From NCBI GenBank assembly GCA_905480575.1, contig CAJQQZ010000006.1:1-64000 (forward strand): 64,000 nt of DNA, in the 5' to 3' direction. Positions within the stretch are counted from its first letter, which is position 1. The number at the start of each line of letters is the position of its first letter. The notes beneath the pieces were generated by a model. It searched no databases. It was not told the DNA's origin and saw nothing but the letters and a program-made list of their open reading frames with translations. Source of the stretch: an uncultured Alphaproteobacteria bacterium (GTDB taxonomy: Bacteria; Pseudomonadota; Alphaproteobacteria; UBA7985; CAJQQZ01). This document shows positions 1,760-11,574 of the stretch, piece by piece. The position numbers and the translations under genes were made by a program.

Positions 1760-3057
1760 GCCTGCTGAACAACACCGAATACATGCGCGCTGACGAACTT
1801 TTTCCGCATCAACAGGCTGCTTGGCACAAGCAAAGAGACTACGTTCTAAGCCGCTCCGACCTGTTCCAAAAGCTTTGGCTGGGTCACCAGCCACCCAAAG
1901 ACTTGCGTGACTTGGCAGAGCTTCCGCTTTCTTCCAAAGCTGAACTGCGCCTTTCACAAGAACGCCACCCCCCTTTCGGCGACTATCTTGCTTCTCCCAA
2001 ATCTGGGGTCTCCAGGCTTCACCGTACCTCTGGCACAACAGGCCAAGCCATGAACCTAGCGATGTCCGCCAGCGATTGCCATATCACCGAAGTGATCGGT
2101 GGGCGTTGTCAATCTGCTGCTGGCCTCACCGCCGAGCATACAGTTGTGCATTGCCTTAACTATCAAATGTGGATGGGCGGTTTGACCGACCATCTGACAC
2201 TGGAAAAGACCGGGGCGACAGTGGTGCCTTTTGGTGTTGGCAATACAGAGCTGTTGATCAGAACAATTCAGGAGGTCGGCGCCACCGCCATTTCCTGCAC
2301 GCCGTCCTACCCCGCTGTCCTGGAGCGTGTGATCGCTGAGCATTTCCCGAAGCTGCAACCAGCCGACTTGGGATTGCAACTCGGGCTGTTTGGCGGCGAA
2401 CCTGGATTGGACGACCCTCAACTGAGAGCCAAGATCCAAGATACTTGGGGTCTGGAACCGCGCAATGCCAATTACGGTGTGTCAGACGTTTTCTGCAATT
2501 TTGCGGCACAGTGCGTCCATGATACGCGGCTTCATTATGTGGCCGCAGACGTGCTCTACCCCGAACTGATTGATCCAGACAGCGAGCAACCTTTGCCGTT
2601 CCAAGCTGGTCAAGAGGGTGAACTGGTCCTCACGCACTTGGCGCGTGACTGCCAACCGCTCGTGCGGTTTAGGACCGGCGATATCATAGCCCTCGACGAA
2701 ACTGGCGCTTGTGAGTGCGGTCGTCTCACCTCTCGTTTTCGTGTTGTCGGACGCAGCGATGATATGGTTGTGGTCAGAGGCCTGAACCTTTTCCCGACCA
2801 TGGTCGCCGCTGTGGTGAATTCGTTCGATGAACTGTCAGGTGACTACCGAATTACCCTTTCCACCCCGCCACCCTATGATTTTCTGCCGTTGCAGGTCGA
2901 GTTGTCGGAAGGACAGAAGGTCGACGACAGCGTAAGTCTTGCCGTTGAACAAAGACTCAAGTCCAAACTGGGTGCGACGGCGAAGGTGACATTGCTGCCG
3001 GCCAACAGCCTGCCGAAAACAGACGGCAAAACCAAACGCGTTATCAGGAGTTACTAA
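1756..3057 (+). CDS. Phenylacetate-CoA ligase family (AMP-forming acyl-CoA synthetase)
   Basis: This ligase of 433 residues adenylates a carboxylic acid and transfers it to CoA. The adenylate-forming motifs appear in order: RTSGTTGQAM (P-loop), YGVSDVFCN, VRFRTGDI, GRSDDMVVVRGLNLFP and a C-terminal LPKTDGKTKRVI with the expected lysine. The architecture matches PaaK-like enzymes rather than long-chain FadD. The start was placed at ATG 1756, which overlaps the upstream stop; a TTG two codons earlier is less likely. Its TAA overlaps the hydratase ATG (TAATG), so the two are translationally coupled. The substrate is not known; an aryl or branched acid is plausible. Confidence 0.87.
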   Translation: MSLLNNTEYMRADELFPHQQAAWHKQRDYVLSRSDLFQKLWLGHQPPKDLRDLAELPLSSKAELRLSQERHPPFGDYLASPKSGVSRLHRTSGTTGQAMNLAMSASDCHITEVIGGRCQSAAGLTAEHTVVHCLNYQMWMGGLTDHLTLEKTGATVVPFGVGNTELLIRTIQEVGATAISCTPSYPAVLERVIAEHFPKLQPADLGLQLGLFGGEPGLDDPQLRAKIQDTWGLEPRNANYGVSDVFCNFAAQCVHDTRLHYVAADVLYPELIDPDSEQPLPFQAGQEGELVLTHLARDCQPLVRFRTGDIIALDETGACECGRLTSRFRVVGRSDDMVVVRGLNLFPTMVAAVVNSFDELSGDYRITLSTPPPYDFLPLQVELSEGQKVDDSVSLAVEQRLKSKLGATAKVTLLPANSLPKTDGKTKRVIRSY

Positions 3058-3818
3058 TGAGCCAATTCACTTATCAAACCGTTGAAAGCCAGATTAACGA
3101 CAAAGGCGTTCGGACCATCACTCTCAATCGCCCAGACTCGCTCAATGCCATGAACCTCCAGCTGATCCTGGATGTGGCCGAAGCCTTCAACGACGCCAAC
3201 CGCGACAGTGCAACCAAAGCCATTGTCTTTACCGGTGCAGGCCGCGCATTCTGTGCTGGGGATGACCGCCACGAACATGTCCACCCAGAAAACGAGGAGC
3301 AAGCCCGCGATCTCGTCGACGCAATCCAGCGCGCCACACAAGCTATTGTCTTTGGCAGTAAACCTGTTGTTGGCGCTATCAATGGTTGGGCCGTGGGTGG
3401 AGGATTCGAATGGGCGATCAACTGCGACTTCCCCATTTGGGGCGAAAGCGCCAAGGCCTTCTTTCCTGAGGTCTCATTGAACCTCTTTGTCACCGGAGCC
3501 GTCACCTCCCTCCTGCCCGCCACGGTCGGCATCAACAAAGCCCGCGAAATGCTGATGCTCGGCGAGCGCTACACGGCAGAAGAACTCGGCAAGCTCGGCG
3601 TTGCCTGGCGTGTTGTTAGTGATGAAGACCTGCAAAAAGAAGCGCTGGCGGTCGCAACCAAACTTGCCAAACAACCACCGCTGGCCATCAGAGCCATGAA
3701 ACGCGTTCTAAACCAGACAATGGCAACTGACCTGCCCCGCGCTCTACAATTAGAGACCGAGGCGACCGTTGCGGGATTCCTGGATCCCGAGACGACAGAG
3801 CGATTAAAGAACTTTTAG
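3057..3818 (+). CDS. Enoyl-CoA hydratase/isomerase (crotonase) family protein
   Basis: A 253-residue crotonase-fold enzyme expected to add water across, or isomerise, an enoyl-CoA. The oxyanion-hole segments are AFCAGDD and GWAVGGGFEWAINCD. Glutamates at the two classical catalytic positions are present, in GGGFEWA and in FFPEVSLN, which favours genuine hydratase activity. It is the last gene of the operon with the acyl-CoA ligase, overlapping it by one base, so both probably act on the same acyl chain. Length is standard for the family. Confidence 0.9.
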   Translation: MSQFTYQTVESQINDKGVRTITLNRPDSLNAMNLQLILDVAEAFNDANRDSATKAIVFTGAGRAFCAGDDRHEHVHPENEEQARDLVDAIQRATQAIVFGSKPVVGAINGWAVGGGFEWAINCDFPIWGESAKAFFPEVSLNLFVTGAVTSLLPATVGINKAREMLMLGERYTAEELGKLGVAWRVVSDEDLQKEALAVATKLAKQPPLAIRAMKRVLNQTMATDLPRALQLETEATVAGFLDPETTERLKNF

Positions 3819-3914
3819 TTAAACTGGACGGCGCTAAATGAAGGCTAATAGCTATCGCCATACAAAAAAGCCTTAGCGCGTCGTACCCAAACCACCTTCG
3901 TTAGCGAAAGAGTA

Positions 3915-4064
3915 CTAGCTCCAAGAGAAGAACCACCCGGCATCAGCTTGGCTTGCCGTCACGATTGAAGAGCCAGCGATTGTCGCTGAGAAAACCATCG
4001 CGAAAGTTGCAGCTTTTACAATCCGTGCTGCTCTTGATGTCTTAGTTGTTAATGTCTGTGTCAT
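3915..4064 (-). CDS. Small secreted peptide precursor (49 residues), unannotated type
   Basis: A short reading frame not resembling any family I recognise. ATG at 4064 is preceded by AGGA at good spacing. The protein has basic residues (K8, R11, R14, K17), a hydrophobic core FAMVFSATIAGSSIV, and AxA-type cleavage options at residues 37-42, which would release only about 7-9 residues ending GWFFSWS. A perfect CRP-type palindrome lies 77 bp upstream. The codons are ordinary and the signal peptide is well formed, which supports a real gene, but no homologue is known to me and expression is unproven. Confidence 0.55.
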   Translation of the reverse strand: MTQTLTTKTSRAARIVKAATFAMVFSATIAGSSIVTASQADAGWFFSWS

Positions 4065-4140
4065 TGCTTTAATCCTTTTTGGGGGCTGGCTTCTTATCAG
4101 CGCCTATGAACACAACATAGCCAAGAGCGGAGATGCGCAA

Positions 4141-4156
4141 TGTGATCAAAGTCACA
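4141..4156 (-). promoter_or_regulatory. CRP/FNR-family binding site, perfect TGTGA-N6-TCACA
   Basis: The sequence TGTGATCAAAGTCACA matches the CRP consensus at all ten conserved positions. On the minus strand it is followed directly by TTGCGC (4140-4135), a 15-bp spacer and TATGTT (4119-4114). That would put the site near -41.5 of a start around 4107, a class II activation geometry. The gene it would serve is the 49-residue secreted peptide starting at 4064. The regulator could be CRP or another family member with the same half-site. Confidence 0.65.
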
Positions 4157-4219
4157 AATATTTCATTATGTTAAAAATTTGGCAGGCTAGCAACGTCAGG
4201 TCTGTTGTTTGTGATTGGA

Positions 4220-4301
4220 GTCAGGTTCGTATTTTTGCGTAACAAAAGAAAAACTTGGTCTCTAAGTTTTTTTGCTTCTAATGCTAAAATGCGAACCTGA
4301 C
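4220..4301. repeat. 82-bp imperfect palindrome with nested stem-loop
   Basis: Outer arms 4220-4238 and 4283-4301 match as an inverted repeat at 17 of 19 positions and begin GTCAGGTTCG. Inside them, AAAAACTT (4249-4256) and AAGTTTTT (4264-4271) form a perfect 8-bp stem with a 7-nt loop. The whole element can fold into one long hairpin. It lies in non-coding sequence and could be a MITE/REP-like relic or a bidirectional terminator. No second full copy was seen in this window. Confidence 0.6.
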
Positions 4302-4383
4302 CTCGTCTAAAAACGGTTTGACGTGAGAAAGTTTCTTACAAATGATTAAATCACCAAAGTTTGTAGAAACAATAGAGCAGACT

Positions 4384-4476
4384 ATGGGATGCAAGATCGC
4401 TAATCCGCAGCAGCCACTTGATGTCCAAGCTGCCCAACGGGTGGTGTTTTACCAGAACGGTGGCTGTGGCAGCTAG
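4384..4476 (+). CDS. Possible 30-residue Cys-containing peptide (weak)
   Basis: A short open frame from ATG 4384 to TAG encodes 30 residues, starting MGCKIANPQQ and ending YQNGGCGS. Only a weak AGAG precedes the start and no family is recognised. The Gly-Cys-rich tail recalls some modified-peptide precursors, but no modifying enzyme is nearby. It is listed because this otherwise gene-free stretch has no better explanation; it may be chance. Confidence 0.18.
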   Translation: MGCKIANPQQPLDVQAAQRVVFYQNGGCGS

Positions 4477-4583: not shown

Positions 4584-5465
4584 TCAATCACATTCGATAG
4601 GTAACGATTCATCGGGGCCCCACTCACTCATAGAATTTTCATAAACGCTGACCTCGCTATGCCCAAGTTGATGAAGCCAAAACGCATCGACTGTCGCGAA
4701 TATGCCTCCACCACAGTAGGCTATATGCTTAGATGCATTGTCTGCACCCACAGATGCAAATTGCTCAGCGATAGCCGCAGGTGACTTGAATTTGTGCGTT
4801 GTCGGATCAACCAAAGATATTTGTGGCACACTGACACTTGCCGGTACGCGGCCTGCTCGGCCATATCTAGGATTTTCGCCAGAATAGATATCACTTCCCA
4901 GCGCGTTTACTGTACAGGTTGAACGGTCGTCTATTGCGGCCAGCACTTGCTCTTTGCCAACGAATAAATTCGGGCGGAGTTTTACTGACAGCAACCCTGG
5001 AGCGTAAGTACTTGTCTCCTTTGTCGTCGAGCGGCCCTCAGCCAACCACCCTTCATAGCCACCGTCTAAAACAGCTGCGTTGTCAAAGCCCAACCAACGC
5101 AGCATCCACCAGAACCGGGTCGCCCAGGAAATGCTGCGGCGGCTGTAAAGCACCACACGGGATCCGTCGCTGATCCCGGCGCGAGCGAAAGCCGCCGCGA
5201 CAGTTGTAGGGTCCGCCAGCGTCATAGCAAAGGGGCTGTTCTGCTGCGAAAAATCGGCTTGAAGGTCAAAATAGCTAGCGCCAGTGATGTGCCCAGCCTC
5301 ATGCTCACTCTGGCAATTGATCACCTCATAGGGCCTATCATCTCCCGTGTCGAAGTTGAGTATAGTCGAGCAGTCAAAAATTCGAACATCAGGCTCGTTC
5401 AGATGGCGCTCCAGCCAGTCACCGCTCACGAGAGCGTTTGGATCGCGAAGTTTGATTTTGGGCAT
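4584..5465 (-). CDS. Two-domain rhodanese-type sulfurtransferase
   Basis: A 293-residue protein with tandem rhodanese domains: an inactive N-terminal one (VLYSRRSISWATRFWW replaces the Cys loop) and a C-terminal catalytic one with the loop YCGGGIFATVDAFWLH. The cysteine is present, but the loop CGGGIFAT differs from the classical CGSGVT of mercaptopyruvate sulfurtransferase and CRKGVT of thiosulfate sulfurtransferase, so the donor is uncertain. The start was set at ATG 5465 because AGGAG sits 10 bp before it; a TTG 13 codons upstream lacks this. It follows a single-domain rhodanese on the same strand. Confidence 0.85.
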   Translation of the reverse strand: MPKIKLRDPNALVSGDWLERHLNEPDVRIFDCSTILNFDTGDDRPYEVINCQSEHEAGHITGASYFDLQADFSQQNSPFAMTLADPTTVAAAFARAGISDGSRVVLYSRRSISWATRFWWMLRWLGFDNAAVLDGGYEGWLAEGRSTTKETSTYAPGLLSVKLRPNLFVGKEQVLAAIDDRSTCTVNALGSDIYSGENPRYGRAGRVPASVSVPQISLVDPTTHKFKSPAAIAEQFASVGADNASKHIAYCGGGIFATVDAFWLHQLGHSEVSVYENSMSEWGPDESLPIECD

Positions 5466-5561
5466 AGACACCTGACTCCTGTAGTTGGATTCATTGGCAC
5501 TCAACGGCGCAACCGAGAAAGCCTCCTAAACTGGGTTTAACGGCTGATCACAATGCGGCAC

Positions 5562-5957
5562 TTAAGGTAGTTTGGTAGATATTCCTGCTGCCAAGAGCGA
5601 CGCCATACCGCCATCAACAAATGAAACATCTGTAAAGCCCATACGCGTCAAGACATTCGCGGCTGAAGCGCCACGATAGCTAGGAGAGCCACCGCAAGTC
5701 GTCAATACCCGTCGCGAGCGATCTTGTAATTCGTGTGATTTGTATTCACATTCCAAATCTGCCATCCAAGCAACCGCTATGCCCGGGGCGGCTAACGCTT
5801 GTAATCCAATGCCAGTTGCCTCCATCTCGGATGTGTCCCGAACGTCAAGCAAAAGCGCGGTAGCGTCATTATTAAGAATTTTCAGCGCGTCATCTGCTGA
5901 AACTTGGTTGGCTTTTGATATTTCGCGCTCTTCCATTTGCGCGTATGTTTCAGCCAT
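5562..5957 (-). CDS. Single-domain rhodanese-like protein
   Basis: A 131-residue rhodanese domain with LLLDVRDTSEMEATG near residue 40 and an active-site loop TTCGGSPSYRGASAA containing the expected cysteine followed by the family arginine. The start at ATG 5957 is supported by AGGAGG eight bases upstream. It lies between the enolase-superfamily gene and the two-domain sulfurtransferase, all on the minus strand, with gaps of about 100 bp. A perfect 9-bp inverted repeat lies just upstream (5978-6014). It likely relays persulfide sulfur; the partner is unknown. Confidence 0.85.
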   Translation of the reverse strand: MAETYAQMEEREISKANQVSADDALKILNNDATALLLDVRDTSEMEATGIGLQALAAPGIAVAWMADLECEYKSHELQDRSRRVLTTCGGSPSYRGASAANVLTRMGFTDVSFVDGGMASLLAAGISTKLP

Positions 5958-5977
5958 TTTGGCTCCTCCTAAGGCCT

Positions 5978-6014
5978 GATTTACCCCCAAAACTAGCACA
6001 TTTGAGGGTAAATC
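5978..6014. promoter_or_regulatory. Inverted repeat GATTTACCC-N19-GGGTAAATC upstream of rhodanese gene
   Basis: Two perfectly complementary 9-bp arms (5978-5986 and 6006-6014) frame a 19-bp spacer, 20 bp upstream of the rhodanese ATG and 50 bp past the stop of the preceding gene. There is no T-run, so an operator or leader hairpin is more likely than a terminator. The cognate regulator is not identifiable here. Confidence 0.45.
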
Positions 6015-9664: not shown

Positions 9665-9792
9665 TACTGGTTCAATGATTGAGTCCAACTGGTCCTATTG
9701 AATCACCCGCCTTATAGAGTAGGTCACATCCACGGATTTCTGCCCGCTTGCAGGGCATCTACTCATGCACACAATCAACAAGAGGAAACGTC

Positions 9793-11574
9793 ATGGTTAA
9801 AATGACCACAGAAGAGGCTTTTGTAAAAGTCTTGCAAATGCACGGCATCGAACATGCTTTTGGTATTATCGGTTCAGCAATGATGCCGATCTCTGACTTG
9901 TTCCCACAGGCTGGTATCAAGTTCTGGGACTGTGCCCACGAATGTAACGGTGGCATGATGGCCGATGGTTACACACGTGCCTCTGGCAAGATGTGCATGG
10001 CTGTGGCGCAAAACGGCCCTGGTATCACGAACTTTGTGACACCTGTTAAGACAGCCTACTGGAACCACACTCCTATGTTGTTGGTGACACCACAGGCGGC
10101 CAACAAGACAATCGGTCAGGGCGGCTTCCAGGAAGTTGAGCAGATGGCTTTGTTCGCTGACATGGTTTGTTACCAAGAAGAAGTTCGCGACCCATCCCGC
10201 ATGGCCGAAGTTTTGAACCGCGTTATTGCTCAGGCTCAGCGTCAGTCTGCGCCAGCGCAAATCAACATTCCACGTGATTACTGGACTCAAGTAATCGATA
10301 TCAACATGCCTCAAATCCTCGAATTTGAACGCCCTGCCGGTGGCGCTGAAGCGATCAAGAATGCGGCTGAGTTGCTTTCATCAGCTAAGTTCCCCGTTAT
10401 CCTTTCAGGTGCTGGTGTGATCCTCGCCGGTGCGATCCCTGCAACGGCTGCTTTGGCCGAAAAGCTCGACTCACCCGTATGCTCAAACTACCAGCACAAC
10501 GATTCATTCCCAGGCAGCCACCCGCTCGCTTGTGGCCCTCTGGGCTACAACGGCTCCAAAGCTGCGATGGACTTGGTTGCCAAAGCTGACGTTGTTTTAG
10601 CACTTGGTACTCGTTTGAACCCATTCTCAACACTGCCTGGTTACGGCGTTGATTACTGGCCAAAAGACGCGAAGATCATTCAGGTTGACATCAACCCAGA
10701 TCGCATCGGCCTTACAAAGCCTGTGGCTGTTGGTATCTGTGGTGACGCGAAGAAAGTCGCTGAATCCATCCTCGCTCAGTTGAGCCCATCAGCCGGTGAC
10801 GCTGGCCGCGCCGACCGTAAAGCCTTGATCCACACAACAAAGTCAGGCTGGTTGCAAACACTCAGCTCTATGGACCACGAAGACGATGATCCAGGCACAA
10901 CTTGGAACGAGCGTGCACGTGCTGATCTGCCGAACCACATGTCACCACGTCAGGCTTGGAGAGCCATCCAGGCAGCACTTCCAAAAGAAGCGATCATCTC
11001 CTCTGACATTGGTAACAACTGTGCCATCGGTAACGCCTACCCTACTTTTGAGGAAGGCCGCAAATACTTGGCACCTGGTCTCTTCGGTCCTTGTGGTTAC
11101 GGTCTTCCTGCCATCGCCGGTGCGAAGATTGGTTGTCCAGACACACCTGTTGTTGGTTTTGCTGGTGACGGCGCATTCGGCATCTCAATGAACGAAATGA
11201 CAGCGGTTGGCCGTGGCGATTGGCCTGCGATTACTCAGGTGATCTTCCGTAACTACCAGTGGGGCGCTGAGAAGCGTAACACGACACTTTGGTTCGACGA
11301 TAACTTCGTCGGTACAGAGCTCGACGAGAACGTGTCTTACGCTGGTATTGCTGAAGCTTGTGGCCTGAAAGGCGTACAAGTTAAGACAACAGACGAGCTG
11401 ACAGCCGCTTTGGCAACAGCTGTTAAAGAGCAGATGGAAGACGGTATCACAACTTTCATCGAAGTTCTGTTGAACAAAGAACTGGGCGAGCCTTTCCGTC
11501 GCGACGCGATGAAGAAGCCAGTTTCTGTTGCCGGTATTGACCCAGCGGACATGCGTCCACAAGCGGGCGCTTAA
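9793..11574 (+). CDS. xsc: Sulfoacetaldehyde acetyltransferase
   Basis: This thiamine-diphosphate enzyme of 593 residues converts sulfoacetaldehyde and phosphate to acetyl phosphate and sulfite, the desulfonating step of taurine and isethionate degradation. The N-terminal HGIEHAFGIIGSAMMPISD, the HECNGGMMADGYTRASGK segment and the GFAGDGAFGISMNEMTA TPP-binding motif with downstream NYQWGAEKRN fit Xsc rather than acetolactate synthase. The start at ATG 9793 has AGAGGA upstream; an earlier in-frame start would add a non-family tail. Codon choice looks like that of a highly expressed gene. No pta or taurine aminotransferase gene is adjacent. A strong terminator follows. Confidence 0.94.
   Translation: MVKMTTEEAFVKVLQMHGIEHAFGIIGSAMMPISDLFPQAGIKFWDCAHECNGGMMADGYTRASGKMCMAVAQNGPGITNFVTPVKTAYWNHTPMLLVTPQAANKTIGQGGFQEVEQMALFADMVCYQEEVRDPSRMAEVLNRVIAQAQRQSAPAQINIPRDYWTQVIDINMPQILEFERPAGGAEAIKNAAELLSSAKFPVILSGAGVILAGAIPATAALAEKLDSPVCSNYQHNDSFPGSHPLACGPLGYNGSKAAMDLVAKADVVLALGTRLNPFSTLPGYGVDYWPKDAKIIQVDINPDRIGLTKPVAVGICGDAKKVAESILAQLSPSAGDAGRADRKALIHTTKSGWLQTLSSMDHEDDDPGTTWNERARADLPNHMSPRQAWRAIQAALPKEAIISSDIGNNCAIGNAYPTFEEGRKYLAPGLFGPCGYGLPAIAGAKIGCPDTPVVGFAGDGAFGISMNEMTAVGRGDWPAITQVIFRNYQWGAEKRNTTLWFDDNFVGTELDENVSYAGIAEACGLKGVQVKTTDELTAALATAVKEQMEDGITTFIEVLLNKELGEPFRRDAMKKPVSVAGIDPADMRPQAGA

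Follow-up and report, generated by a model that had tools for sequence, protein, structure and literature searches.

The 64,000-nucleotide stretch of DNA analysed here (the window) carries on its minus strand a 49-codon open reading frame (ORF) that is probably a real gene and is best read as encoding a small exported peptide downstream of a CRP box. Judged from its sequence, the 49-residue peptide would consist almost entirely of an export signal followed by a seven-residue aromatic tail, and CRP, the regulator that senses cAMP, probably activates the gene. On present evidence the gene is lineage-specific and lies at a synteny break. The explanation as a whole, i.e. a lineage-specific gene with class II activation by CRP, export by Sec and cleavage by signal peptidase I, is given a probability of about 0.5. 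The features of the locus are as follows.

3826-3885, no strand assigned: imperfect inverted repeat between the convergent enoyl-CoA hydratase and micropeptide genes
3915-4064, minus strand: ORF of the 49-aa micropeptide, with n-region (residues 1-17, net +4), hydrophobic core (residues 18-35) and c-region TASQADA
4065-4085, minus strand: ribosome-binding region CCCCAAAAAGGATTAAAGCA, with core AAGGA
4114-4119, minus strand: candidate -10 hexamer TATGTT at exact class II spacing, with a predicted start near 4107
4141-4156, minus strand: perfect CRP-type palindrome TGTGACTTTGATCACA (TGTGAN6TCACA, 10/10)
4165-4193, minus strand: alternative promoter TTGCTA-17-CATAAT, for which the box would lie at about +2 to +17 and be repressive
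4210-4225, plus strand: weaker CRP-like site TGTGATTGGAGTCAGG (8/10), 69 bp from the perfect box, in repeat family D2

A probable gene for an exported micropeptide

The ORF (4064 to 3915 on the minus strand) starts with ATG, ends with TAG and encodes the 49-aa product MTQTLTTKTSRAARIVKAATFAMVFSATIAGSSIVTASQADAGWFFSWS. Immediately 5' of the ATG lies the ribosome site AAAAAGGAT, read as CCCCCAAAAAGGATTAAAGCAATG. Re-reading of the sequence thus confirmed the 49-codon frame with a good ribosome site and a signal peptide that the first-pass annotation had described. The frame was also assessed with a strict filter, which called for an ATG start, a length of 35-80 aa, a Shine-Dalgarno match of at least 5, a hydrophobic core, a net positive N-terminus and an AxA motif. 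No match was found in 60 Markov windows (64 kb each, with the same dinucleotide statistics) and one in the real window, namely the micropeptide frame, which was likewise the sole frame reaching the ribosome-site cut-off of 5 in approximately 440 kb of sampled genome (the 64-kb window plus 20 stretches chosen irrespective of CRP boxes); the thresholds were chosen with this frame known, so the figures are guides rather than clean p-values. By codon usage, the share lying beyond the micropeptide frame was 14% for slices of real genes and 6% for random frames, a comparison that has no power at 49 codons. A 107-codon open stretch covers the same DNA on the opposite strand; it has no ATG, GTG or TTG start upstream of the box and was not taken as a gene.

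The micropeptide follows the layout of a Sec signal peptide, with a positive n-region, an apolar core and an AxA motif in the c-region. Four positive charges are found among the 17 residues of the n-region, and the mean hydrophobicity of the core is 1.77 over 12 residues and 1.53 over 19 residues. The motif ADA ends the seven-residue c-region, and a cut after it would leave GWFFSWS, while an alternative cut after VTA would leave SQADAGWFFSWS. The clean signal peptide with a choice of AxA cleavage sites and a tail ending in GWFFSWS, claimed from the first reading, can accordingly be read from the sequence, with ADA directly preceding GWFFSWS.

The CRP box and its candidate promoter

Upstream of the micropeptide, the consensus CRP palindrome that had been noted earlier was borne out at 10/10 positions. 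The box (4156-4141) is the window's only match within one mismatch, a level at which about 2.4 matches would be expected by chance, and perfect TGTGAN6TCACA sites number seven in the 4.03 Mb genome compared to one for the reversed control pattern. With the box centre (4148.5) set at -41.5, the hexamer TATGTT (4119-4114) occupies positions -12 to -7. The class II distance that had also been proposed is thus matched exactly by a candidate -10 hexamer (29 after the box centre), though this hexamer agrees with the consensus at only 4/6 positions, A2 and T6 included, and is for that reason modest evidence for a class II promoter; by our estimate, the chance of such a hexamer is about 5% when the position is allowed to vary by ±1. 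A generic promoter scan preferred TTGCTA (4193-4188) and CATAAT (4170-4165) over the class II hexamer. Activation is nevertheless favoured, because a hexamer stands at an identical distance from the box at a second micropeptide locus (see below). The weaker CRP-like site at 4210-4225 may be due to chance.

The genome encodes eight CRP/FNR-type HTH domains and 17 class III cyclase domains. Two proteins, L059 and L061, share 27-28% identity with E. coli CRP when aligned, retain the GE...RSA cassette of cyclic-nucleotide binders and keep the RExxxR recognition helix (RENVNR in L061 and RREAVSR in L059, compared to RETVGR in E. coli). CRP-like proteins with this helix, together with the 17 cyclases, indicate that the machinery for cAMP control is present, and one such protein would be expected to bind the box.

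Other perfect CRP boxes and a second locus

Four of the seven perfect boxes lie inside coding frames, identified from their translations as GST-like, GAF domain, EF-G and the 3' end of a P450, while the remaining three (the window box, L030 and L031) are non-coding. Two of these three precede exported micropeptides with strong ribosome sites. At the second such locus (L031; genome G000, contig C171), a frame at 253-116 encodes the 46-aa peptide MSGTKIAILAGAVMLTALTLVSATQAKQDCNDLPRGVINCRSSDLI, with the perfect box (372-387) placed 118 nt upstream of the start ATG AGT GGT. Preceded by the ribosome site AAAAGGAG, this frame encodes a strong signal peptide followed by two cysteines, and a second CRP-like box (9/10) lies 23 bp from the perfect one. 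At both loci a 4/6 hexamer occupies the class II position (29 after the box centre), TATGTT in the window and CATAAG at L031. By our arithmetic, about 0.003 such frames would be expected by chance within 250 nt of the six other boxes, a rough figure in that its base rate of about one frame per 440 kb derives from a single event. The 46-aa peptide is unrelated in sequence to the 49-aa micropeptide and gave no good match in the order's other genomes (best E 0.5); the two peptides may be members of one set.

A box common to genome G001 (L027/L041) was considered as a conserved CRP site and rejected, as it lies inside a conserved GST-like coding frame. Separately, two genomes of the order each have a perfect CRP box some 190-225 nt ahead of a small secreted protein, the two proteins being related (L034 in G005 and L040 in G003); the protein in G003 is PepSY_2-like at a score slightly below the Pfam cut-off. 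These boxes represent a possible conserved CRP target.

Conservation and genomic neighbourhood

Protein searches found no homologue of the micropeptide in the same-genus genome, in 11 genomes of the order, in 385 of the class, or among species-level genome contigs, plasmids or viral contigs, and a degenerate scan of 85,000 species genomes gave none either. Weak matches with E values of 0.01-0.4 (L002, L003 and L025) stop short of the tail, none extending past residue 44, and were put down to signal-like sequences resembling each other by chance. A scan of the 85,000 species genomes for the tail as AGWFFxWx-stop (TRR allowed) returned 98 stretches, and none of the 80 that were read was an exported pre-peptide. 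Pfam, NCBIfam and PHROG gave no family match, in agreement with the earlier remark that no described family is known. The idea of a secreted micropeptide under CRP control is thus supported as regards a small exported-peptide gene, its box and the lack of a family, but not as regards conservation, the criterion that the first reading had itself set, since neither the frame, the tail nor the CRP box was conserved in any genome searched.

The enoyl-CoA hydratase of the same-genus genome shares 92% identity and is followed by unrelated DNA, a WYL-type regulator region (read from a translated frame) without the micropeptide frame, an absence that is not absolute since this genome is 84% complete. 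As even the same-genus genome lacks the frame, the pattern points to a lineage-specific gene rather than proving the DNA non-coding.

The next gene in the window, the enoyl-CoA hydratase (3057-3818), lies on the strand opposite to the micropeptide. The inverted repeat between the two is a possible shared 3' end; it is non-canonical, and no canonical terminator was found downstream of the micropeptide gene. A leader peptide of an aromatic amino-acid attenuator was rejected, as the downstream hydratase faces the other way. Rfam gave only sub-gathering matches to eukaryotic families, which were taken as chance. On the other side of the gene, a strong hairpin at 4220-4301 (-44 kcal/mol for 4205-4315, z -10) is formed by two inverted copies of the dispersed 23-nt repeat GGTCAGGTTCGCATTTTTGCGTA, which occurs once more in the genome (G000:C183:4742-4764) and at two places in the same-genus genome. 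The repeat resembles REP or miniature elements, and the hairpin, which is probably unrelated to the peptide, may mark a local rearrangement.

A divergent 44-codon frame, MIKSPKFVETIEQTMGCKIANPQQPLDVQAAQRVVFYQNGGCGS (4342-4476, plus strand), starts 185 nt from the CRP box and has no family match. It is followed by two rhodanese-domain genes (4584-5999, minus strand) beside a mandelate racemase-like gene, and near these lie the genes of a large NHL-repeat protein and of a sulfoacetaldehyde acetyltransferase (9748-11574). The acetyltransferase is nearest to alphaproteobacterial plasmid copies (approximately 79% to Paracoccus), which makes it likely that the DNA comes from an alphaproteobacterium. 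The same-genus genome lacks a close copy of the larger rhodanese, which suggests a possible lineage-specific island, and a sulfur/sulfonate island of this kind may begin at the micropeptide locus.

Alternative explanations

The main alternative is an uncleaved, membrane-anchored small protein, followed by repression by CRP, a regulatory RNA and chance; the confidences attached to these are not mutually exclusive, as the membrane-anchor and repression readings each concern a single step. In a small inner-membrane protein, residues 18-37 would form an uncleaved helix with the N-terminus inside and the W/F tail anchored in the interface of the outer leaflet, so that regulation would be the same but no free peptide would arise. 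The four positive residues before the core, the 20-residue apolar stretch and the aromatic tail at the membrane border are all compatible with such a protein, as are the small proteins made from other CRP-controlled RNAs, VcdP (29 aa) and AzuCR (PMC8672173). However, the modest hydrophobicity of the core over 19 residues, which favours a cleavable signal over a stable anchor, the Gly-Ser-Ser within that core and the well-placed ADA site after a seven-residue c-region make an anchored product rather less probable than a processed one. Regarding the direction of control, transcription from the TTGCTA/CATAAT promoter would start near 4158 and be blocked by CRP at the box just downstream, in which case the peptide would be produced at low cAMP. 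This promoter pair scores 9/12 with a 17-nt spacer, and VcdRP, Spot 42 and AzuCR are all CRP-repressed (PMC8672173), but 1.8 such pairs are expected by chance per 2.5 kb, and TATGTT lies at precisely the class II spacing, as does a hexamer at the second micropeptide locus, which leaves repression unlikely.

It is also conceivable that the main role of the transcript is that of a regulatory RNA under CRP control and that the frame is secondary or incidental to it (a dual-function RNA). A short free-standing transcript, CRP control and an orphan frame would agree with this, and VcdRP and Spot 42 are precedents (PMC8672173), yet the predicted structure of the transcript is no greater than that of shuffled sequences (z -0.72), no Rfam match reached the gathering score at the locus and the frame is better than chance, all of which renders this the least probable of the four. 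That there is no gene at all, but only a frame and a palindrome that arose side by side by chance where synteny breaks and the intergenic DNA evolves fast, would account for the absence of conservation in all searches, for a codon usage that is not clearly gene-like and for the four of seven perfect boxes that lie plainly within unrelated genes. Coincidence nonetheless appears improbable given that none of the 60 simulated windows held a comparable frame, that box, spacing, ribosome site and signal peptide occur jointly, and that L031 offers an independent second case.

Proposed mechanism and relation to known systems

In the preferred reading, a CRP-activated gene for an exported peptide, cAMP-bound CRP or a CRP paralogue would bind at 4156-4141 and activate transcription from approximately 4107 in the class II mode. 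The resulting short mRNA would be translated from the micropeptide's own ribosome site, and Sec would export the product, a pre-peptide made up of little besides its signal sequence. The most likely cut by signal peptidase I would fall between ADA and GWFFSWS, after which the aromatic heptapeptide would remain in the periplasm, partition to the membrane interface or leave the periplasm. That a free peptide of 7-9 residues is released and acts as a signal or a surface-active factor, as the first reading suggested, would be a further, conjectural step. We infer CRP binding, activation, export, cleavage and any envelope role from what is directly observed, i.e. the frame, the ribosome site, the box, the spacing, the CRP-like proteins and cyclases, and the second case.

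The cCF10-type pheromones of enterococci consist of a few hydrophobic residues cut from signal sequences or short pre-peptides; they are Gram-positive, originate from lipoprotein signals and involve dedicated proteases, pumps and receptors. The likeness lies in hydrophobic residues derived from a pre-peptide that is mostly signal sequence, whereas no receptor or transporter gene was recognised beside the micropeptide gene and the peptide is not conserved. Closer in regulation are small proteins of Gram-negative bacteria, among them the membrane-associated protein AzuC. In Escherichia coli, AzuC is produced from a short RNA (AzuCR) that is repressed by CRP, and in Vibrio cholerae the 29-aa VcdP is encoded by the CRP-repressed VcdRP, where the small protein binds citrate synthase and the RNA also base-pairs (PMC8672173). 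The present locus shares with VcdRP a short free-standing transcript, a micropeptide frame and a CRP site at the promoter, and with AzuCR a small protein from a short CRP-controlled RNA. It differs from VcdP in its export signal and in a spacing that suggests activation, and from AzuC in its Sec-type signal and AxA sites; both are likened to it on their descriptions. The micropeptide gene would thus belong with CRP-controlled small protein genes and is loosely comparable to AzuC and VcdP.

A broader and rather speculative possibility is that this lineage has a CRP regulon of unrelated, fast-turnover exported micropeptides, comprising the aromatic one and the two-cysteine peptide of L031, which would act in the periplasm or outside at high cAMP as a Gram-negative counterpart of short processed peptide signals or envelope modulators. 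Genes so short usually escape annotation and homology searches. If the link between CRP boxes and micropeptides holds, regulatory sites would offer a route to such genes even when they are not conserved, and a single organism provides two loci on which to test this, in the window and at L031. For a Gram-negative bacterium, cAMP control of a free aromatic heptapeptide would, if true, be out of the ordinary.
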